From an uncultured Eubacteriales bacterium (GTDB lineage: Bacteria > Bacillota > Clostridia > Lachnospirales > Lachnospiraceae): DNA of 56,062 bases. Both the position numbers and the translations under genes were made by a program. Of this stretch, positions 11,243-56,062 are shown one piece after another; the stretch's first letter is position 1, and each line of letters begins with the position of its first letter. The notes beneath the pieces were generated by a model. It was not told where the DNA came from. It saw nothing but the letters and a program-made list of their open reading frames with translations, and did not search any database. The DNA lies in NCBI GenBank assembly GCA_949289145.1, contig CASEML010000071.1, positions 1 to 56,062 on the forward strand. The letters run 5' to 3'.

Positions 11243-11326
11243 TTTCTAGTACATATTTTATACAGGTTTGGAAATACTACCCTTAGAAAATCGTTTTTGC
11301 ATGATGCAGAAGGGAGTCAGATTAGT

Positions 11327-11686
11327 ATGATGGATTATGTAAATGCTTTTTGGGTTGGAGGGCTGATCTGTGCATTGATTCAGATATTGATGGATAGGAC
11401 AAAGCTGATGCCTGGAAGAATTATGGTGCTTCTAGTTTGTACTGGAGTGGTACTTGGTGCCTTAAATTTATATCCTCCATTGGTGGAATTTGCAGGTGCC
11501 GGAGCCAGTGTACCATTGCTTGGTTTTGGAAATACCCTTTGGAAAGGAATCAGGGAAGCTGTGGACACAGATGGTTTTATTGGAATTTTTATGGGCGGCT
11601 TTACATCCAGCTCAGTGGGAATATCAGCGGCTCTGATTTTTGGATATATAGCAAGTTTGATTTTTAAACCGAAAATGAAAGAATAA
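11327..11686 (+). CDS. spoVAE: Stage V sporulation protein AE
   Basis: Small membrane protein of the SpoVA dipicolinate channel, 119 aa with about four hydrophobic segments. It has the typical features AFWVGGLICALIQ, DRTKLMPGRIMVL, the GVVLGALNLYPPLVEFAGAGA segment with its conserved glycines, GFGNTLWKGI and the C-terminal FGYIASLIFKPK. A longer reading from 11240 would run through the MATE terminator; the ATG at 11327 has AAGGGAG about 10 nt upstream. It is cut off from spoVAD by the AraC-GH31-MATE genes and has its own terminator, so it must be transcribed separately. I did not find a convincing sigma-G promoter in front of it. spoVAC is not in the window. Confidence 0.92.
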   Translation: MMDYVNAFWVGGLICALIQILMDRTKLMPGRIMVLLVCTGVVLGALNLYPPLVEFAGAGASVPLLGFGNTLWKGIREAVDTDGFIGIFMGGFTSSSVGISAALIFGYIASLIFKPKMKE

Positions 11687-11697
11687 AAGAATAATAG

Positions 11698-11740
11698 AAG
11701 CGGTACAGAGAACTCCTAAGAAGACAGCTCTGTACCGCTT
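11698..11740 (+). terminator. Terminator-like hairpin after spoVAE
   Basis: AAGCGGTACAGAG (11698-11710) pairs perfectly with CTCTGTACCGCTT (11728-11740); the loop is 17 nt. The following sequence ATTGTCTGTT is only moderately T-rich. Confidence 0.6.
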
Positions 11741-11781
11741 ATTGTCTGTTATACAAATGCAAAAATATATAACATATGTTC

Positions 11782-11810
11782 TTGACATTACTTTCCTAAC
11801 TGTATATAAT
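11782..11810 (+). promoter_or_regulatory. Consensus sigma-A promoter for the GntR-ABC operon
   Basis: TTGACA (11782-11787), exactly 17 nt, TATAAT (11805-11810). This is a full match to both hexamers and would be very strong unless repressed, which fits control by the first gene of the operon. Confidence 0.85.
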
Positions 11811-11831
11811 CTGTATCAAGATGAATAATAC

Positions 11832-11856
11832 ACTTAATAAAATAGTACAATTAAGT
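11832..11856. promoter_or_regulatory. Candidate operator for the GntR (YtrA-type) regulator
   Basis: Inverted repeat ACTTAAT (11832-11838), 11 nt, ATTAAGT (11850-11856), about 20 nt downstream of the -10 box and just before the Shine-Dalgarno site. The position suits autorepression. Confidence 0.45.
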
Positions 11857-11870
11857 AGAAAGGAAAAAAT

Positions 11871-12245
11871 ATGATTATTATTGATTACAAAGATAGAAGA
11901 CCTATTTATGAACAAGTAATTGAACGATTTCAAGACTTAATTGTCAAGGGTGTCTTAAAGCCTGACAGTCAGCTGCCTTCTGTGCGCAGTCTTGCCATGG
12001 AATTATCCATCAATCCTAACACGATACAAAGAGCTTATACAGAACTGGAACGTCAGGGGTATATTTATTCTGTAAAAGGCAGAGGCAGTTTTGTGAGTTT
12101 TAATGAAGAATTGTTGGATTTGAAACAAAAAGAAGTGAAAGAAAAGCTCCAGAAGATTATTGAGCTTGCCAAAAGTGTTCAGATTCCGGAAATACAAGTG
12201 CAAGAAATTGTAAAGGAAAGTTATCAGAGGGAGGAGATAAAATGA
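11871..12245 (+). CDS. GntR-family transcriptional regulator, YtrA subfamily
   Basis: Short GntR regulator of 124 aa. The N-terminal winged helix is clear: RRPIYEQVIERFQDLIVKG, LPSVRSLAMELSINPNTIQRAY and LERQGYIYSVKGRGSFV. A short dimerisation helix of about 45 residues follows, rather than a ligand-binding FadR or UTRA domain, which defines the YtrA subfamily. Such regulators repress their own operon with ABC genes and often respond to cell-wall antibiotics. The stop overlaps the ATPase start (ATGA), and a strong promoter with an inverted repeat lies upstream. Confidence 0.93.
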   Translation: MIIIDYKDRRPIYEQVIERFQDLIVKGVLKPDSQLPSVRSLAMELSINPNTIQRAYTELERQGYIYSVKGRGSFVSFNEELLDLKQKEVKEKLQKIIELAKSVQIPEIQVQEIVKESYQREEIK

Positions 12246-13144
12246 TAGAAGCAGCTGAAATCAGCAAAAGCTTTGGAGACATTAAAGCAGTAGATCATAT
12301 TTCTCTAACTATAAGAGAGGGAAACGTGTTCGGGCTGGTAGGAACCAACGGAGCAGGAAAAAGTACTTTTATGAGAATGATGGCTGGCGTTCTGTGCCCT
12401 GATCGGGGAACGATTTTAGTGGACGGCATACCGGTATATGAATCCGAGGAAGCGAAAAGAAAACTTTTTTATATTTCGGATGATCAGTTCTTTCTTTTGA
12501 ACTCCACACCAAAAGACATGGGATGTTTTTATAAAACCGTCTACCCGGAGTTTGACGAGAATAAGTATCTGGACTGTTTAGAGAAATTTTCCATGGATGC
12601 CAAAAGAAAGATTGCAACTTTTTCTAAGGGAATGAAAAAGCAACTTTCTATTTTGCTTGGAATCTGCGCCGGAACAAAATATCTTTTGTGCGATGAAACC
12701 TTTGATGGGCTGGATCCTGTGATGCGTCAGGGGATAAAAAGTCTGTTTGTTAGAGAAATGGGAGATCGGGGACTTACACCTGTAATAGCTTCACACAATT
12801 TAAGAGAGTTAGAAGATATCTGTGACCATGTGGGCTTGCTGCATAAAGGCGGTGTGCTTCTCTCAAAGGACTTATTGGAGATGAAGTGCAACATATTTAA
12901 AGTACAGTGTGTTTTCAATGATTCTATTATGGAATATGAAGCAGTTACAAAACTGGATGTATTGAAGCATGAAAGAAGAGGTTCTTTGGTCACATTGACT
13001 ATTCGGGGAGATCAGGAGGAGATTATGCATAGGATACAGAGTGCAAATCCTGTATTTAGTGAAATTCTTCCGTTATCTTTAGAAGAGATTTTTATCAGTG
13101 AAACGGAGGTAGTAGGATATGATATCAAAAAGCTCATTTTCTAG
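12242..13144 (+). CDS. ABC transporter ATP-binding protein (YtrB/YtrE-like)
   Basis: ATPase subunit of the regulator-linked ABC system, 300 aa. Walker A GTNGAGKST (about residues 37-45), signature-like FSKGMKKQLS, Walker B YLLCDETFDGLD and H-loop ASHNLRE are visible. The signature lacks the usual LSGGQ form (FSKGM), which is common in this drug-exporter-like subfamily. The last 80 residues form the typical C-terminal extension. The start has GGGAGGAG directly upstream, and its 3' end overlaps the permease gene by 26 nt, so the two are translated together. Confidence 0.92.
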   Translation: MIEAAEISKSFGDIKAVDHISLTIREGNVFGLVGTNGAGKSTFMRMMAGVLCPDRGTILVDGIPVYESEEAKRKLFYISDDQFFLLNSTPKDMGCFYKTVYPEFDENKYLDCLEKFSMDAKRKIATFSKGMKKQLSILLGICAGTKYLLCDETFDGLDPVMRQGIKSLFVREMGDRGLTPVIASHNLRELEDICDHVGLLHKGGVLLSKDLLEMKCNIFKVQCVFNDSIMEYEAVTKLDVLKHERRGSLVTLTIRGDQEEIMHRIQSANPVFSEILPLSLEEIFISETEVVGYDIKKLIF

Positions 13145-15203
13145 TTTGTTAAAAGAAGATATAAAGACAAAAATGTGGCTTGTTTTAGTGAATGTTATTT
13201 TATTGTTTCTAAATTTTCCTGTTGTTATGGCAATACAGGTACAGAATGTGGCGGAACATGTTAGAGCAGGTGCATACACAAAAGATCAGGTGGTTGATAT
13301 ATTAGTTTACTATATTGGCGGAAAGAATATGGCAACCATACTTCTTACATTGCTGATGGGATGTGTAGCGGGGGTGGCGCAGTTTGGATATTTATATCAC
13401 AAAAATCAGGTGGATTTTTATCATAGCCTGCCGATCCGCAGACAGAAATGTTTTTTGATACGCTTTGTAAATGGAATGTTAATGTATTTTCTGCCATACA
13501 TATTATTTTGCTTGATGGGGATTGCAGTGGTCTGCGCTTTTGGATATGGGCAGATGGCAATCATACGGGCGGCATTTTTAGGATTCCTAATAAATATGAT
13601 AGGTTATTTATTGTGTTATGCTACTGCAATACTGGCAGTATGTCTGACAGGGAATCTGTTTAGTGGAATTTGTGGAATCGTGACTTTTCAGGGGTACGGC
13701 ATTTTGACAGCGTTGTTTGCCAGAAGCATGATGAGTGAATATAGTGAAACTTATATGCCCGAATATGGAAAACTGGGGCAATTGTGTAATTTTATTTCAC
13801 CTATAGGTGCTTACAATCAATTATCTGATGTAATGAATGGGGATGGTTCTTCCAGTCCGCTGCTGTGGCTTTTGGGGTGCATGATTGCGGCTGTTTTACT
13901 AACAATGATATCATTCTGGGTATATCTTAACAGAAAGTCAGAAAGTGCCGGAAAGTCCATTGCATTTGAGAAAAGCAAGGGAATCATTAAAGTCTTTTTA
14001 ATGGTACTTATACTTGGGTGTGGAACCTTGTTTTTCCGATCCATGGGTTATAACGCAACATTTATCTGGTCGATGATTGGGTTTGTGATTACTTTTGTTT
14101 TAGCTCATATTATGGTTCAGATTGTTTTTGAAATGGATGTAAAAGCGGTAAAGCAGGGAATAAAATCGGCTCTTATGTCAGTAATTATTTCTATTGCGAT
14201 ATTTGGCGGATTTTATGTGGGAGGTCATTACTACGATAGTTACCAGATCGACTGGGACAAAATGGAGTATGCGGCAGTATATTTGGAGAATTATAATGGA
14301 TATGATGAAAGTTATTATGATGCGGAGCAAGGCTGTTATATCAGTTGTGAAGAATATATTTTTAAGCACATGAAGGTGAGAGATAAAGACTTAATCAAAA
14401 ACTTTACAAAGGACTGTATTGACAGCGGAAAGAAAGAAGGAGAGTTGGTTTCTGTTAACTTGAAGTACACATTGAAAAATGGGAAGGAAGTTTATAGAGC
14501 CTATAAAATAGAACATAATCTAATAAAAGATTATATTTTACAGCTTCTTGATAATAAAGAATACCGAATAGGAACAGTACAGATATTCAGTATCAATCCA
14601 GAAGAAGTTACGCAGATAAAATATTATGATGAGTGGTCAGACTATCAATATTTGAATATGTCACAAGAAGAAACGACAAATCTGATCGAAACTTATAAGG
14701 AAGAATACTTAAGTGCCACTGTGGATCAGTTGAATCAAAATGCACCTGTTATGAGCTTTATTCTGGCTACAAAAGAGGATAATATGGAATGGGATTTAAC
14801 AACGGTTTATGTTTATCCATCCTTTGAAAAGACCATTTCTATGCTGGAGAGTAAGGGCATGGAAGCAAAAACAATGGAAGATACCAATATTACAGAAATT
14901 ACAGTATCATGGTGGAAGGAGATAGAAGATGGAGTAATGGAGCCGTTGGAAGTAACATATACAGAACCAGAAAAAATTCAGCAATTAAAACAATTGTTAT
15001 CCTTTGCAGAGTATGGTTATTATACAGCATTTGATTGTGATTATACTCTGAAACAGGATTATACTATCGTACTGGAACTGGAAGATGAAGATAGGGGCAT
15101 TTCCCAGCAAAGTGCAGTATTTATCAAAGAAATACCGGAATGGCTGCAGGAGGATTTGAAAAATACGGAAATCCAGCAGGAGATAGAAGGGACAGCCCAG
15201 TAG
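13119..15203 (+). CDS. ABC transporter permease with large C-terminal extracytoplasmic domain
   Basis: 694-aa membrane protein. The first 370 residues hold seven or eight hydrophobic segments. From about residue 375 the protein is polar and acidic, rich in Tyr, Glu and Asp, with no further membrane span, so it probably projects outside. This architecture resembles permeases carrying a DUF6449-type C-terminal domain in Clostridia; that name is from memory. The gene overlaps the ATPase gene by 26 nt, and GGAGG lies about 13 nt before the ATG. With the GntR regulator it forms a sensing or export unit, perhaps for peptide antibiotics. The function of the outer domain is unknown. Confidence 0.82.
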   Translation: MISKSSFSSLLKEDIKTKMWLVLVNVILLFLNFPVVMAIQVQNVAEHVRAGAYTKDQVVDILVYYIGGKNMATILLTLLMGCVAGVAQFGYLYHKNQVDFYHSLPIRRQKCFLIRFVNGMLMYFLPYILFCLMGIAVVCAFGYGQMAIIRAAFLGFLINMIGYLLCYATAILAVCLTGNLFSGICGIVTFQGYGILTALFARSMMSEYSETYMPEYGKLGQLCNFISPIGAYNQLSDVMNGDGSSSPLLWLLGCMIAAVLLTMISFWVYLNRKSESAGKSIAFEKSKGIIKVFLMVLILGCGTLFFRSMGYNATFIWSMIGFVITFVLAHIMVQIVFEMDVKAVKQGIKSALMSVIISIAIFGGFYVGGHYYDSYQIDWDKMEYAAVYLENYNGYDESYYDAEQGCYISCEEYIFKHMKVRDKDLIKNFTKDCIDSGKKEGELVSVNLKYTLKNGKEVYRAYKIEHNLIKDYILQLLDNKEYRIGTVQIFSINPEEVTQIKYYDEWSDYQYLNMSQEETTNLIETYKEEYLSATVDQLNQNAPVMSFILATKEDNMEWDLTTVYVYPSFEKTISMLESKGMEAKTMEDTNITEITVSWWKEIEDGVMEPLEVTYTEPEKIQQLKQLLSFAEYGYYTAFDCDYTLKQDYTIVLELEDEDRGISQQSAVFIKEIPEWLQEDLKNTEIQQEIEGTAQ

Positions 15204-21073: not shown

Positions 21074-22636
21074 ATGGAAAGTGAAGTGAAACCACACAGC
21101 AATCGGAAAGTGTTTAGATATGCAGTCATTGGAGTGGGAATCTTTTTGGTGGGTTTGCTTATCGGGCTAAACTATGTGTACGGTATATTAGAGCAGCGGC
21201 TCATTGAACAGGGAGTATTGGAAGAAACCGTAAAAGGGATTATGAGTTTGTTATATGGTGTCAGCGGGGGAGGTTTTGTTGTTGCAGCAATCTTATTTGG
21301 AATTTTGTGCTGTTTACTGGTAAAAAGTAATCAGGAGTTGGAAGAATTTGTTTTTGTGGACAGTATAACCGGGGGAAGTACTTATGTAAAATTCAGGATG
21401 GATTTGGAAGACTATTTAAAGAAAAATACCCGTCAGGATTACGCTGTACTCAGCATAGATATTGACAAGTCCAAGTATATTGAAGAAATTTTCGGAAATG
21501 ATGAATACATGAAAGCCATTCATTATGTATGGAATGTTTTAAGTGAAGAAACGGCAGAAAACGAATTTTGCTGTCATAAGGATGCAGATCATTTCTATGC
21601 CTTGTTTCAATATAAAGATGAAGAACGGATCAAACAGCGCATTGAAGAGATGTACGATGATATCCGGGAGAAAATTGAACAGGGTGAGATTTATTACGAT
21701 TTAAAAATTTCTGTAGGTGTATATATATTAAATAACAGAAAGCATGGAGTAGAACGTATCTTGTCTAGAAGTGATGTTGCCAGAAAGACCATTAAGGGGC
21801 AGCATGACAGGCTGTATGCCTTTTATACCGAGGAAATGAAAAAGAGTCAGGTGAAAAACAAAGAAATAGAAGACAGAATGGAAAAAGCGCTGGAGAAAGG
21901 TGAATTTTATGTATGCTATCAGCCAAAATTCAGTACTCAGGAGAAAAAGATTGTGGGTGCGGAAGCATTGGTCAGATGGCGTATGAATGGTGAAAATATC
22001 ATTCCGCCTTCGGAGTTTATTCCATTGTTTGAAAGTAACGGTTTTATCAAGGAATTGGACAAGTATGTATTTGAGCAGGTGTGTAAAGATGTAAGTGGAT
22101 GGCTGGATAAAGGTCTGGATGTGAAACCAGTATCTGTTAATCTGTCACAAATGCAGCTCTATAATACTAATTTCATTAAAGAATATGCAGAGATTCTGGA
22201 ACGTTATGATTTAGATTCTAAATATGTGCAGTTGGAGTTAACAGAAACAGCATTGTTTGATAATCCGGTCGTGTTGGCTAAGATAATCAACCAGCTTCAC
22301 AATATGGGCATTGAAATACTGATGGATGATTTTGGAAAAGGATATTCTTCCTTAAATATGTTAAAAAATGTGGAAGTGGATACAGTAAAAATTGATAAGA
22401 GTTTTGTGGATGATATTGGAAATAATAAGAAGGTAGAGCGAATCATTGCAACCATCATTTCGCTGGTACGTTCTCTAAATATGCATGTGGTGGCTGAGGG
22501 CGTGGAAAACGAGATGCAGTATAAGTTTTTAAATCTGGTGGAATGTGATGAAATTCAGGGATTTTATTTTTCTAAGCCGATTGGAGTCAGTGAATATGAA
22601 GAATTGTTAAAGAAAAATACAGATGAAAAAGTATAA
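21074..22636 (+). CDS. Membrane-bound GGDEF-EAL protein, probable c-di-GMP phosphodiesterase
   Basis: 520-aa signalling protein. Two hydrophobic segments (about residues 15-37 and 57-82) bracket a short outer loop. A GGDEF-like domain follows (about 95-250) whose signature is replaced by HKDADHF (about residue 160), so it probably cannot make c-di-GMP but may bind GTP. The EAL domain (about 270-515) keeps all usual residues: AEALVRW, NLSQMQ, ELTET, MDDFGKGYSS, KIDKSFV, VAEGVEN and GFYFSKP. It should therefore hydrolyse c-di-GMP. GAGGGGG precedes the ATG. A c-di-GMP riboswitch about 32 kb downstream shows that the cell uses this messenger. Confidence 0.93.
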   Translation: MESEVKPHSNRKVFRYAVIGVGIFLVGLLIGLNYVYGILEQRLIEQGVLEETVKGIMSLLYGVSGGGFVVAAILFGILCCLLVKSNQELEEFVFVDSITGGSTYVKFRMDLEDYLKKNTRQDYAVLSIDIDKSKYIEEIFGNDEYMKAIHYVWNVLSEETAENEFCCHKDADHFYALFQYKDEERIKQRIEEMYDDIREKIEQGEIYYDLKISVGVYILNNRKHGVERILSRSDVARKTIKGQHDRLYAFYTEEMKKSQVKNKEIEDRMEKALEKGEFYVCYQPKFSTQEKKIVGAEALVRWRMNGENIIPPSEFIPLFESNGFIKELDKYVFEQVCKDVSGWLDKGLDVKPVSVNLSQMQLYNTNFIKEYAEILERYDLDSKYVQLELTETALFDNPVVLAKIINQLHNMGIEILMDDFGKGYSSLNMLKNVEVDTVKIDKSFVDDIGNNKKVERIIATIISLVRSLNMHVVAEGVENEMQYKFLNLVECDEIQGFYFSKPIGVSEYEELLKKNTDEKV

Positions 22637-49417: not shown

Positions 49418-49482
49418 TTATATTTTAGTTAACGGATGATATCATAATGATAAATGGATTAGGTATAAAGAAAGGTGAGACA

Positions 49483-50316
49483 ATGAACTGGTTGAACAAA
49501 TTGGAAAGGAAATTTGGGAAGTTTGCAATTACAAATCTTTCCATATGGCTGATTGGGTGTTATGTGATAGGATATATACTGAATTTTATTGCACCAAATG
49601 TGTTAGGTTATCTGACGTTAGAACCTGCATTTATTATGCGCGGACAGGTGTGGAGAATAGTCACATGGCTCTTAATTCCGCCATCAAGTTTTAGTATTTT
49701 TACATTTATTATGTTATTCTTTTACTACTCCCTTGGGACAACACTTGAAAAGACCTGGGGAACTTTTCGTTACAACGTGTTCATTTTTTCAGGTGTGTTG
49801 TTTACTATTCTTGGAGCATTTGTATTGTATATCATAGGAAAAATCGGGGGCGTAACACTGGTAGGAATGGGTTCGGCATTTAGTACTTATTATATTAATA
49901 TGTCAATTTTCCTTGCTTTTGCGGCATCTTATCCTGATATGAAAGTTATGTTATACTTTATCATTCCGCTGAAAATTAAATGGCTGGCCTACTTTGATGC
50001 AGCATACTTACTTTATATGGCGTTTATTGGCAGTTGGGCAGACAGAGTGGTAATTGTTGCTTCCATTTTGAATTTTTTGGTGTTTTTTTTCAGTACAAGA
50101 AATTATCAGAGAATTTCCCCGTCGGAAATCAAAAGAAAGCGTACTTACAAAAAGAAAGTGGAATATTCAAACGGAATTACAAAGCATAAGTGTGCGATTT
50201 GCGGAAGAACAGAACTAGATGGAGAACATTTGGAATTTCGCTTTTGTTCTAAGTGTGAGGGGAATTATGAGTATTGTCAAGATCATCTTTTTACACACCA
50301 ACATAAAAAGAGATAG
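49483..50316 (+). CDS. Rhomboid-like membrane protein with C-terminal zinc-ribbon
   Basis: 277-aa membrane protein with six hydrophobic segments (between about residues 15 and 205) arranged like a rhomboid: the L1 loop region ...RGQVWRIVTWLLIPPSS matches the rhomboid QxWR pattern. The catalytic GxSG motif is not clear; the corresponding region reads VGMGSAFSTYY, and no catalytic His is obvious, so it may be a non-protease rhomboid. A soluble tail carries CxxC...CxxC plus further Cys and His residues (CAICGRTELDG, FCSKCEGN, YCQDHLFTHQH), probably binding one or two zinc ions. AAAGGTGAG precedes the ATG at 49483. Confidence 0.75.
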   Translation: MNWLNKLERKFGKFAITNLSIWLIGCYVIGYILNFIAPNVLGYLTLEPAFIMRGQVWRIVTWLLIPPSSFSIFTFIMLFFYYSLGTTLEKTWGTFRYNVFIFSGVLFTILGAFVLYIIGKIGGVTLVGMGSAFSTYYINMSIFLAFAASYPDMKVMLYFIIPLKIKWLAYFDAAYLLYMAFIGSWADRVVIVASILNFLVFFFSTRNYQRISPSEIKRKRTYKKKVEYSNGITKHKCAICGRTELDGEHLEFRFCSKCEGNYEYCQDHLFTHQHKKR

Positions 50317-52444: not shown

Positions 52445-53929
<1,485 letters not shown>

Positions 53930-53975: not shown

Positions 53976-54095
53976 ATAATGCTGTAAAAAAATGTTGAAA
54001 AAAGTGAACACAGCAGCTTGCAAGACTTTTGTTTAAATAGTAGAATATTATTTAATATTAAAATATATTTATTTAAAATATATTTATCAGGCAAA

Positions 54096-54560
54096 ATGAA
54101 AACAAGGGGGATGAAATTGGTAAAGAAGCTGTTGCGTTTTATAAAGTATAATGGGGAAAAAGGAGTGACCATTAAGGTATATTTTTATGCGGCATATTTC
54201 CGAATGTGTATTTTGATTTTAAACAAGAAGCATAATGAAAGATTAGAAAAAATGCTGGGACAACGGGGAAAGGAATCTTCCTACGAAGAAACAAAGGAAA
54301 ACTATCGTATTGCCAAACAGATTTCTAGACAGGTTAACCGTATTGCGGAGCATACTCCTTGGGAAAGCAAATGTATGGTAAGGGCAATGACAGCCCAAAA
54401 ACTTTTAAATGAAAAAGGAATTGAAACTACAATTTATCTTGGCGTAGGTACAAATGAACAGGGCGGTATGCGGGCTCATGCATGGCTGCGTTGTGGAATC
54501 TACTGTGTTACCGGAGGAGGAGATGCAGAATGTGCTGTTGTGGCAAAATTTAAAAAGTAG
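54096..54560 (+). CDS. Lasso-peptide B2-like transglutaminase-fold protein (standalone)
   Basis: 154-aa protein matching the pattern of the lasso peptide B2 protease (McjB C-terminal, Transglut_core3): catalytic Cys in WESKCMVRAMTAQKLLNEKG, then TTIYLGVGTNEQGGMRAHAWLRCG with the catalytic His, and GGGDAE near the end. Lasso B2 cleaves leader peptides together with B1 (a PqqD-like protein) and C (cyclase), but none of these nor a clear precursor is in the window. It could be an orphan peptidase or process another peptide. Start is uncertain: ATG 54096, ATG 54111 or TTG 54117, the last being best placed after AAGGGGG. Confidence 0.75.
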   Translation: MKTRGMKLVKKLLRFIKYNGEKGVTIKVYFYAAYFRMCILILNKKHNERLEKMLGQRGKESSYEETKENYRIAKQISRQVNRIAEHTPWESKCMVRAMTAQKLLNEKGIETTIYLGVGTNEQGGMRAHAWLRCGIYCVTGGGDAECAVVAKFKK

Positions 54561-54635
54561 GGAATGTAGTACTAAATTCTTATAGAAATTTTTGGAAAAT
54601 TTAGATATAATACATACAAATTTAATAAAATAATG

Positions 54636-54717
54636 TGTTAATAGCAAACTTATGGAAACATAAGGACGCAAAGCTGAGGACCTTAGACGTAATAACGTTA
54701 TGGTAGCCGGTTGCCGA
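54636..54717 (+). ncRNA. Cyclic di-GMP-I riboswitch (GEMM)
   Basis: The conserved core of the GEMM/c-di-GMP-I aptamer is plain: GCAAAC at 54644-54649, a hairpin TTATG-GAAA-CATAA with a GNRA loop, GGACGCAAAGCTGAGGACC (54664-54682), a second stem capped by ACGTAATAACGT, and TGGTAGCCGGTTGCCG closing the motif. The GAAA loop and its receptor, and the GACGCAAAGC stretch, are the best-conserved parts of the family. A TATAAT box lies at 54606-54611. A terminator and a secreted-protein gene follow. Confidence 0.95.
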
Positions 54718-54738
54718 AAATAAATGTAATTCAAAAGG

Positions 54739-54791
54739 ATTGCCGATTTTTGTTTGCTATTTTTGATAGCGGAGAAATCGACAATTTTTTT
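54739..54791 (+). terminator. Riboswitch expression-platform terminator
   Basis: ATTGCCGATTT (54739-54749) pairs with AAATCGACAAT (54775-54785), one C-A mismatch, with an inner stem GCTAT/ATAGC (54756-54760, 54766-54770), followed by seven T. AATAGCAAAC of the aptamer (54640-54649) is perfectly complementary to GTTTGCTATT (54752-54761) in this hairpin, giving an alternative antiterminator pairing. Confidence 0.85.
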
Positions 54792-54911
54792 ATGTTAAGG
54801 AAATACTACCAAAAGTCCTGGCAAAATTTATGTGAAAGAAGTTGTGGAAGTTGTACCAAGGAAAAGAATATCTGAATAAGCTATTAGTAAAACAGGACAG
54901 GGGGTTTGAGC

Positions 54912-56062
54912 ATGAAACAAAACAGGACAGGATTTTTGAAAAGAGTAACAAGTACGGTGTTAGTGGGAGGGATTATGGCAAGTACTATACCGGTTATTAA
55001 TGTGCAGGCGGCAACTTCTGCTGCTCAACAGGAATTTCGAAAAGAGTTTGCTAATATGCTGTGTTCTGGAGATGGACAAGTTCACAATATTAGGAAATAT
55101 AATTTAACTTGGAGTGAATATTATGATATTTGTCAGGAAGTACTGGAAAATGAGGGGAAGATCGCATATGAATGTTATATGAACCAGACTACCAATTCCA
55201 CTAAAGATGGAATGTATATGGATACATTTTGGCTCATTAACAGTGATTCTGGCTTTCAGGAACGGTATGCCAGTATGTTGAAATCCATTGAGGAAGTACA
55301 GTCTACTTTGGATGAGAATATGAATGAAGTGGAAAAGGCTTTGTGTATACACGATTATGTTGTAAAACATACAAATTACAGTTTGGATACTTTTTCATGG
55401 ATAGCCGGTGGACCGCTAGGATTGGGATATGGAGTGTGTACAGGATATGCGCGAGCTGTAATTCTGCTGCTGGAATTAGAAGGGATTGAATGTAAGCTGG
55501 TATCAAACAACGGACATGCGTGGGTTGCGGCAAAACTAGATGGAGAATGGTACCATATTGACCCTACATGGGATGATACGAGAAGTACGAAGCCGGGAGT
55601 GGTAACGTCTCACGAATTTTTTGTAAGAAATGATAATGAATTTAGAAATGATCCGAAAAATCCTCATATTGGCTGGTCAGGAAATATATCCAGTTCTGAA
55701 AAATATACAGACTGGTATGTACATGATATTTCAGGGGATATGTTGTATGCTGGAGGATATTGGTATTATGAAAAAAATGGATCTATTGTAAAAAATGACA
55801 TTGAAGGAAATTCCTATCAACTGGTAATCTGCGGTAGTGATTTGAAAATAAAATCCATAGAGAATGGAATATTATCTTACTCAGAAAATGGAAAACTATA
55901 TACAACACAGGTGGATAAATCGACAGCTACGGAATCTACTACAGAAGGAGAAATGATAGAACCAACGGTAACAGTAAATCCGACGGTGACAGCAGTACCG
56001 ACAGAGACAGTCATCCCAACAGTAACGGAAGCTCCCACAGCGACGATAATACCAACAGAGGA
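54912..56062 (+). CDS. Secreted transglutaminase-like protein with Thr/Pro-rich repeats (runs off window)
   Basis: At least 383 aa; the 3' end lies beyond the window. Residues 1-33 form a signal peptide ending in NVQA. A transglutaminase-like (CYK3/YebA-type) domain spans about 35-230: catalytic Cys in GYGVCTGYARAVILL, His in NNGHAWVAAKL and Asp in YHIDPTWDD. A repeat-like region with DWYVHDISG and YWYYEKNGSIVKN follows. From about residue 350 comes a Thr/Pro/Val-rich linker (VTVNPTVTAVPTET and so on), typical of wall-spanning stalks. AGGGGG precedes the ATG. The gene is controlled by the c-di-GMP riboswitch, so it is probably a surface factor linked to attachment or sessile life. Confidence 0.9.
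   Translation, partial: MKQNRTGFLKRVTSTVLVGGIMASTIPVINVQAATSAAQQEFRKEFANMLCSGDGQVHNIRKYNLTWSEYYDICQEVLENEGKIAYECYMNQTTNSTKDGMYMDTFWLINSDSGFQERYASMLKSIEEVQSTLDENMNEVEKALCIHDYVVKHTNYSLDTFSWIAGGPLGLGYGVCTGYARAVILLLELEGIECKLVSNNGHAWVAAKLDGEWYHIDPTWDDTRSTKPGVVTSHEFFVRNDNEFRNDPKNPHIGWSGNISSSEKYTDWYVHDISGDMLYAGGYWYYEKNGSIVKNDIEGNSYQLVICGSDLKIKSIENGILSYSENGKLYTTQVDKSTATESTTEGEMIEPTVTVNPTVTAVPTETVIPTVTEAPTATIIPTE

Follow-up and report, generated by a model that had tools for sequence, protein, structure and literature searches.

A c-di-GMP-I riboswitch likely acts as an OFF switch for a transglutaminase-like enzyme gene in a paeninodin-like lasso-peptide locus

A transcriptional c-di-GMP-I riboswitch of the OFF type likely controls a probably secreted transglutaminase-like cysteine enzyme of a paeninodin-like lasso-peptide locus in an uncultured Lachnospiraceae bacterium. 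The riboswitch and the first part of the enzyme gene lie near the end of the 56,062-nucleotide stretch of DNA that we analyzed, referred to as the window herein. The new element is the module itself, a c-di-GMP-I riboswitch with a transglutaminase-fold enzyme inside a lasso locus, which we did not find in the literature searched. A c-di-GMP switch on an enzyme beside lasso genes in several genera would tie lasso peptides to the decision between sessile and motile life, and the module provides a regulator that can be tested, an extracellular enzyme candidate, and a means of recognizing further clusters of this kind.

Results

Riboswitch and antiterminator

The features of the window locus to which we refer throughout are as follows.

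54018-54560, + strand: B2-like lasso leader peptidase gene (transglutaminase fold), immediately preceding the riboswitch (NF033537, PF13471)
54583-54611, + strand: promoter-like site TAGAAA-17-TATAAT, upstream of the aptamer (10/12 consensus letters)
54633-54718, + strand: c-di-GMP-I (GEMM-I) aptamer (RF01051, 79.2 bits)
54640-54649, + strand: 5′ aptamer strand AATAGCAAAC, antiterminator strand 1, including the conserved core G and C (exact complement of 54752-54761)
54715-54721, + strand: aptamer 3′ edge, antiterminator strand 2, predicted to pair with 54746-54752 in the ligand-free intermediate (minimum-energy fold of 54630-54770)
54726-54743, + strand: linker hairpin 54726-54732/54737-54743, antiterminator helix 3, using the base of the terminator 5′ arm (folding)
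54733-54791, + strand: intrinsic terminator hairpin with T run 54785-54791 (folding)
54752-54761, + strand: GTTTGCTATT, switching strand in the terminator (exact complement of 54640-54649)
54912-56060, + strand: first 383 codons of the transglutaminase-like gene, truncated at the contig end, with a signal-like N-terminus, PF01841 core, and Thr/Pro stalk (Pfam and sequence)
55437-55562, + strand: catalytic triad codons Cys176 (55437), His202 (55515), and Asp217 (55560) (invariant in 12/12 aligned sequences)

An Rfam covariance scan aligned the aptamer with the full RF01051 model (positions 1-87) at a score well above the gathering score of 35, bearing out the complete c-di-GMP-I core that had been claimed in the original prediction. 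At gathering thresholds, this was the sole Rfam match in the window, and it was also the sole c-di-GMP-I match in the bacterium's own genome (G000), which is 88% complete. Read by sequence, the AGCAAAC motif places a G at 54644, and we take this G before CAAA to be the selectivity position (G20 of Vc2) that favors c-di-GMP over cGAMP. Five GGDEF matches were found in the genome, one of them inside the window, which makes c-di-GMP plausible as the ligand, and we infer that it is the ligand of the riboswitch in this species. The same window encodes a GGDEF-EAL protein at 21074-22636 (EAL 233.9 bits, GGDEF 46.9 bits). The promoter-like site upstream of the aptamer is weak since three such sites occur in the region when 1.7 are expected.

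Folding resolved the terminator into three helices (54733-54742/54782-54791, 54744-54750/54774-54780, and 54753-54761/54765-54773) with a run of seven T at 54785-54791. A T-run terminator had been predicted 20 nt downstream of the aptamer; the terminator stood, and the distance was revised, as its stem begins 15 nt past the aptamer end. A consensus terminator scan reported no terminator at the switch, nor the hairpins after the enzyme gene that are discussed below, whereas direct folding shows both. The switch terminator was probably missed because it has an internal loop and because part of its T run falls within the stem.

The perfect 10-nt complementarity that had been noted between 54640-54649 and 54752-54761 is exact. 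When we folded the RNA ending at 54770, a fuller antiterminator of three helices was found in the minimum-energy structure (54640-54648/54753-54761, 54715-54721/54746-54752, and 54726-54732/54737-54743). These helices engage both aptamer ends and occupy 23 bases of the 29-base 5′ arm of the terminator, and alignment to RF01051 showed that they disrupt conserved G-C pairs of the aptamer core. Until the antiterminator emerges, the core G-C pair of the ligand-free window RNA has a predicted pairing of only 0.20 to 0.25. In the full-length RNA, folding favored the terminator even without ligand, implying that switching must be kinetic.

A helix spanning GCAA as good as that of the window did not arise in any of 500 dinucleotide shuffles of the downstream 60 nt (p 0.002), and by a looser measure over 160 nt the pairing had a p of 0.015. 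The core pairing recurred at all four same-genus aptamers that precede the enzyme gene, namely those of G000, G003, G004, and G001, where the best GCAA-spanning helices were 10, 10, 7, and 12 bp with p values of 0.002, 0.006, 0.098, and 0.002, respectively (combined 3.6e-6). At four loci of other genera, the strict pairing test was not significant (L143, 0.79; L144, 0.15; L220, 0.15; L221, 1.0), which suggests that the exact antiterminator is a trait of the window's own genus. That genus holds seven c-di-GMP-I aptamers in five genomes, and the three that do not precede the enzyme gave p values of 0.065, 0.72, and 0.35 by the looser measure. A 5′-strand antiterminator as a general design was rejected, as one of 62 scored aptamers, that of the same-genus G001, reached p ≤ 0.01 by the looser measure (69 surveyed, five without the motif and two too short).

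We also folded growing transcripts. At all four same-genus loci, GCAA-to-downstream pairing stood at 0.94 or more at +40 from the aptamer. By +60 to +70, when the terminator 3′ arm emerges, it had fallen to no more than 0.13, and it partly recovered at some later lengths (0.45 for G000 at +90). A stricter folding measure, the antiterminator probability, was 0.92, 0.93, 0.85, and 0.69 for G000, G003, G004, and G001. Values above 0.5 recurred in 41, 39, 26, and 8 of 200 shuffles of these loci, respectively, and in 12 of the 64 scorable aptamers (of 69), the four same-genus ones included. This measure is therefore weak on its own, and the pairing test is the stronger evidence.

Lasso-peptide locus

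The gene directly upstream of the riboswitch matched the NCBIfam lasso_biosyn_B2 model NF033537 at 74 bits (cut-off 33) and Pfam PF13471 at 69.4 bits (cut-off 26). The lasso context was absent from the original prediction, though this gene lies within the window. In G003, a single contig carries enolase, B2, riboswitch, enzyme, asparagine-synthetase-like cyclase C, a 50-residue precursor, HprK-like kinase, ABC transporter, sugar transferase, and PqqD-like B1 in that order. The bacterium's own genome holds the same lasso genes divided among the window contig C71 and contigs C22 and C139, with the cyclase, precursor, kinase, transporter, and RRE past the end of the window contig. Lasso linkage likewise spans contig ends in G001 and G004, and it is contiguous in G003, L143, L144, L220, L221, and L145. 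The contig overlaps of 33 nt (C71/C22) and 60 nt (C26/C23) fall in stalk repeats, and C113/C133 have no overlap. A further member of the genus, G002, was found without the riboswitch, a close enzyme, a close cyclase, or a strong B1.

For cyclase C, the best NCBIfam model of the G003 orthologue was NF033535 (1.4e-80, 271.7 bits, below the cut-off of 525), and the own cyclase gene on C22 is 62% identical to that orthologue. The RRE protein B1 encoded on C139 had as its best lasso model NF033536 at 1.4e-20 (73.2 bits, below the cut-off of 80) and matched Pfam PqqD at 72.6 bits (cut-off 23.4). All seven aligned precursors share Thr-Ala near the leader end, core Gly1, and Asp9, and the same was seen by eye in the five of L220 and L221; Gly1 and Asp9 are as expected for a nine-residue ring. 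The NCBIfam paeninodin precursor model NF033524, which spans 30 leader positions, matched 10 of 12 precursors tested, one of which exceeded the cut-off of 27 (L143, 27.4 bits), and it gave no match to the own precursor. Since this model is mostly under its cut-off and the cyclase and B1 models are under theirs, we term the cluster paeninodin-like rather than file it as a member.

Several other features of these loci were observed. The lasso locus of G001 contains a 112-residue ORF (L053, 10007-10345) with a lasso-like leader, MKKAWSQAKIEALDIENTQGAG, and a long Gly/His/Cys-rich tail ending DPSFS; it had no Pfam match and is perhaps a second kind of precursor. The lasso cyclases of L143 (12588-15686) and L144 (6095-9073) each carry a fused family 2 glycosyltransferase. 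The enolase beside the lasso genes (window 52556-53929; L055 10439-11887) varies in length within the genus (457 versus 482 residues), and that of G004 has a charged insert. Lastly, window positions 49447-50316 encode a 289-residue protein with a Cys-rich C-terminus and no Pfam match, for which look-alikes were seen by eye in G001 and G004.

Transglutaminase-like enzyme

The enzyme frame starts with ATG at 54912 and is interrupted by the contig end at 56062. Its PF01841 core scored 44.8 bits (cut-off 23), and the twelve aligned sequences in which Cys176, His202, and Asp217 are invariant include that of the window. Together with the stalk read from the sequence, these results support the Cys-His-Asp transglutaminase-like protein that had been proposed, and its N-terminus, judged by eye to be signal-like, suggests that the enzyme is secreted. 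An AlphaFold2 model of residues 34-336 was confident (pLDDT 87.9, pTM 0.87). The sole solved relative by profile at E ≤ 0.01 was Streptococcus pyogenes TglA (PDB 9crn, E 4.3e-12), which was also the best fold match to the model (E 2e-6), although the TM-score was only 0.41 by query length with 15% identity. Our literature search found no publication on TglA.

The window contig stops within the stalk, and C22 overlaps it by 33 nt and carries the matching 3′ part of the gene. Reading this part by eye revealed no LPXTG, and Pfam returned no match at E ≤ 0.1; no wall anchor was found, and the C-terminus, again by eye, ends with neither LPXTG nor a membrane anchor of the sortase type. A description of the C-terminal domain as LamG-like was dropped, as no Pfam match supported it.

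Distribution of riboswitch, enzyme, and lasso genes

We scanned named genomes with the enzyme alignment and kept the best 80 of 300 loci. Lasso-gene profiles detected B2, C, or B1 at seven of these best 80 of 300, comprising four genus loci, L143, L144, and L145; in L143 and L144 the riboswitch, enzyme, and cyclase are consecutive. Among 150 sampled genomes of the family, six, the own one included, had cyclase matches at E ≤ 1e-60. The other six cyclase loci comprise two with the enzyme (L220 and L221), each with a riboswitch directly upstream of it, and four (L222 to L225) with neither enzyme nor riboswitch. The enzymes of L220 and L221 matched our own profile at 5e-70 and 3e-73 and are below the Pfam cut-off (22.6 and 17.5 versus 23 bits).

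There are thus nine loci with both enzyme and lasso genes (G000, G001, G003, G004, L143, L144, L220, L221, and L145), and in eight the riboswitch lies directly upstream of the enzyme, the sole exception being the strain KH1P17 (L145), which has no riboswitch. Among homologues without lasso genes, it lies directly upstream in two of the 21 searched (L147 and L153). This control set consists of L137, L140 to L142, and L146 to L162, with L163 to L214 (52 of the 80 loci) left out; L149, which has a weak kinase match only, was excluded from the lasso loci. With loci treated as independent, Fisher's test gave p 6e-5 for 8/9 versus 2/21 and p 0.0014 for 5/6 versus 2/21 when the genus was counted once.

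The two aptamers of the control set (L147, 9737-9820; L153, 9410-9493; Oscillospiraceae and Ruminococcus records) each lie directly ahead of an enzyme homologue that looks secreted (683 and 711 residues, respectively), and the lasso genes B2, C, and B1 were not found close by. Approaching from the riboswitch side, we reached more distant enzyme-like genes in G046 (two), G006, G048, and G058, again with no lasso genes nearby, the G058 contig being only 3.5 kb. Because riboswitch and enzyme also pair at these loci, c-di-GMP control of this enzyme type appears from sequence comparison to be wider than lasso loci and strongly enriched in them. Our survey found 69 c-di-GMP-I aptamers in 31 of 61 genomes, and 9 of 65 first downstream ORFs matched the enzyme profile, four of the nine being the profile's own seeds. 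Second enzyme copies without their own riboswitch were present in the lasso loci of G001 and L220. The L220 copy (11256-13361) is an enzyme-profile match with no Pfam family at E ≤ 0.01.

Discussion

Since the antiterminator and the aptamer are mutually exclusive, an OFF switch appears to be the best reading of the riboswitch, and comparison and folding both support the antiterminator pairing and ligand-bound OFF logic of the original prediction. Without ligand, the growing RNA would form the three-helix antiterminator, taking up most of the terminator 5′ arm and both aptamer ends, and the enzyme gene would be transcribed. With c-di-GMP bound, the aptamer would retain its strands, allowing the terminator to form and the enzyme gene to go off, such that the enzyme would be made at low c-di-GMP. 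This direction agrees with the class I switches of Clostridioides difficile, which are OFF according to the available portions of PMC11477304 and PMC9262584. The Cd1 (C. difficile flgB) and ppep-1 riboswitches share the class I aptamer, the terminator, the OFF logic, and a metastable antiterminator that destroys binding, as described in those portions. The Cd1 antiterminator is built there from strands T, A, and H and not from the 5′ strand P (PMC9262584), whereas at the window the 5′ strand with the GCAAAC core joins the antiterminator, and the target gene lies in a lasso locus and encodes a transglutaminase-like enzyme.

We considered other readings of what the switch does. Close GEMM-I relatives go both ways, with Cd1 OFF and the cGAMP-sensing pilM switch ON in the accessible text of PMC9262584, but an ON switch at the window, in which ligand binding promotes read-through, is highly improbable given that the core G and C, together with the aptamer 3′ edge, are drawn into the antiterminator, which thereby excludes the bound state. 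The reach of the switch is less clear-cut. If it controlled the lasso operon from the enzyme through the cyclase and onward, c-di-GMP would gate lasso-peptide production itself. Such control fits the L144 lineage, where 3 nt separate the enzyme ORF from the cyclase ORF after it and where the switch probably governs the cyclase too; it also fits the order of riboswitch, enzyme, and cyclase in L221, the second enzyme gene of G001, which runs into the cyclase with 28 bp between, and L220, in which the enzyme is followed by two precursor genes. We nonetheless regard it as rather unlikely as an account of the system. In G000, G003, and G004, folding reveals terminator-like hairpins with T runs between the enzyme and cyclase genes, so in these genomes the enzyme is probably its own transcription unit and the only gene under the switch. 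In the genus and in L220, the B2 gene comes before the riboswitch, and promoter-like sites, which are no commoner than in shuffles, precede the cyclase in G000 and the precursor in G003.

An OFF switch on the enzyme leaves its role to be considered. To our knowledge, little has been learned about what gut and rumen lasso peptides do in nature, and many transglutaminase-fold proteins are proteases. By association, the likeliest target of the enzyme is the lasso peptide, or a polysaccharide or surface made by the same locus. The surface transglutaminase first proposed, which would cross-link or cleave surface or host proteins, draws on the transglutaminase core and triad and on a choline-binding repeat found above cut-off in L137, a homologue without lasso genes. 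It is not supported by the 3′ part of the window gene, in which neither LPXTG nor a Pfam match was seen, and we judge it very unlikely. It is quite possible, if short of probable, that the enzyme is a bystander in the lasso locus, acting as a secreted PPEP-1- or LapG-like protease that releases surface adhesins at low c-di-GMP. The regulatory sense would be that of C. difficile PPEP-1 (PMC11477304, in the portion available), LapG (PDB 4fgo) appeared as a weak match in the fold search (rank 45, E 0.13), and in L147, L153, G046, G006, G048, and G058 aptamers stand before transglutaminase-like genes for which no neighboring B2, C, or B1 gene was found. Against this stands the far greater frequency of the riboswitch beside lasso genes among the homologues found by sequence, by either Fisher comparison. 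Still more speculatively, and as an unlikely proposal on present evidence, c-di-GMP may gate an extracellular step of the lasso system, whereby the secreted enzyme, made only at low c-di-GMP, would trim the peptide or couple it to the surface or exopolysaccharide. If true, c-di-GMP, which sets sessile or motile life, would also decide whether the lasso peptide is free or bound.

The pairing of c-di-GMP-I with a transglutaminase-like gene is already known. In the section available to us, a 2025 survey (PMC12452182) lists COG1305 (yebA, transglutaminase-like) among the genes targeted by contiguous c-di-GMP-I riboswitches in Bacillota (1.08E-34), of which 94% are two in a row and 6% three. With this listing, the 9/65 downstream ORFs, and the L147 and L153 pairs, the original description of such an enzyme as an uncommon output is too strong. 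In both the survey and the window, c-di-GMP-I stands before a transglutaminase-like gene; unlike the contiguous aptamers, that of the window is single and sits in a lasso locus, and the accessible section of PMC12452182 names no such locus. Paeninodin-like lasso clusters occur within capsule loci (PMC13381572), and rumen Lachnospiraceae lasso clusters come with HPr kinase, nucleotidyltransferase, and glycosyltransferase genes (PMC7533575, which also lists the KH1P17 precursor), as reported in the parts of these papers at hand. The window locus resembles them in its B2, putative RRE and cyclase, HprK-like kinase, nucleotidyltransferase, transporter, and polysaccharide or glycosyltransferase genes and differs from them in that those parts describe neither a riboswitch nor a separate secreted transglutaminase; the word riboswitch occurs 0 times in PMC7533575. 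Our literature searches returned no report joining riboswitch, lasso peptide, and c-di-GMP, and, judged by title, none on riboswitches and lasso peptides concerned a lasso-embedded module.

Other aptamers in these genomes precede different genes. Two further genus aptamers in G004 (L057 and L058) stand before secreted-looking proteins that are Ig-like by eye and are possible adhesins, and the lasso locus of G143 (L221) has a second c-di-GMP-I aptamer at 580-665, before an ORF with Pro/Thr/Glu repeats.
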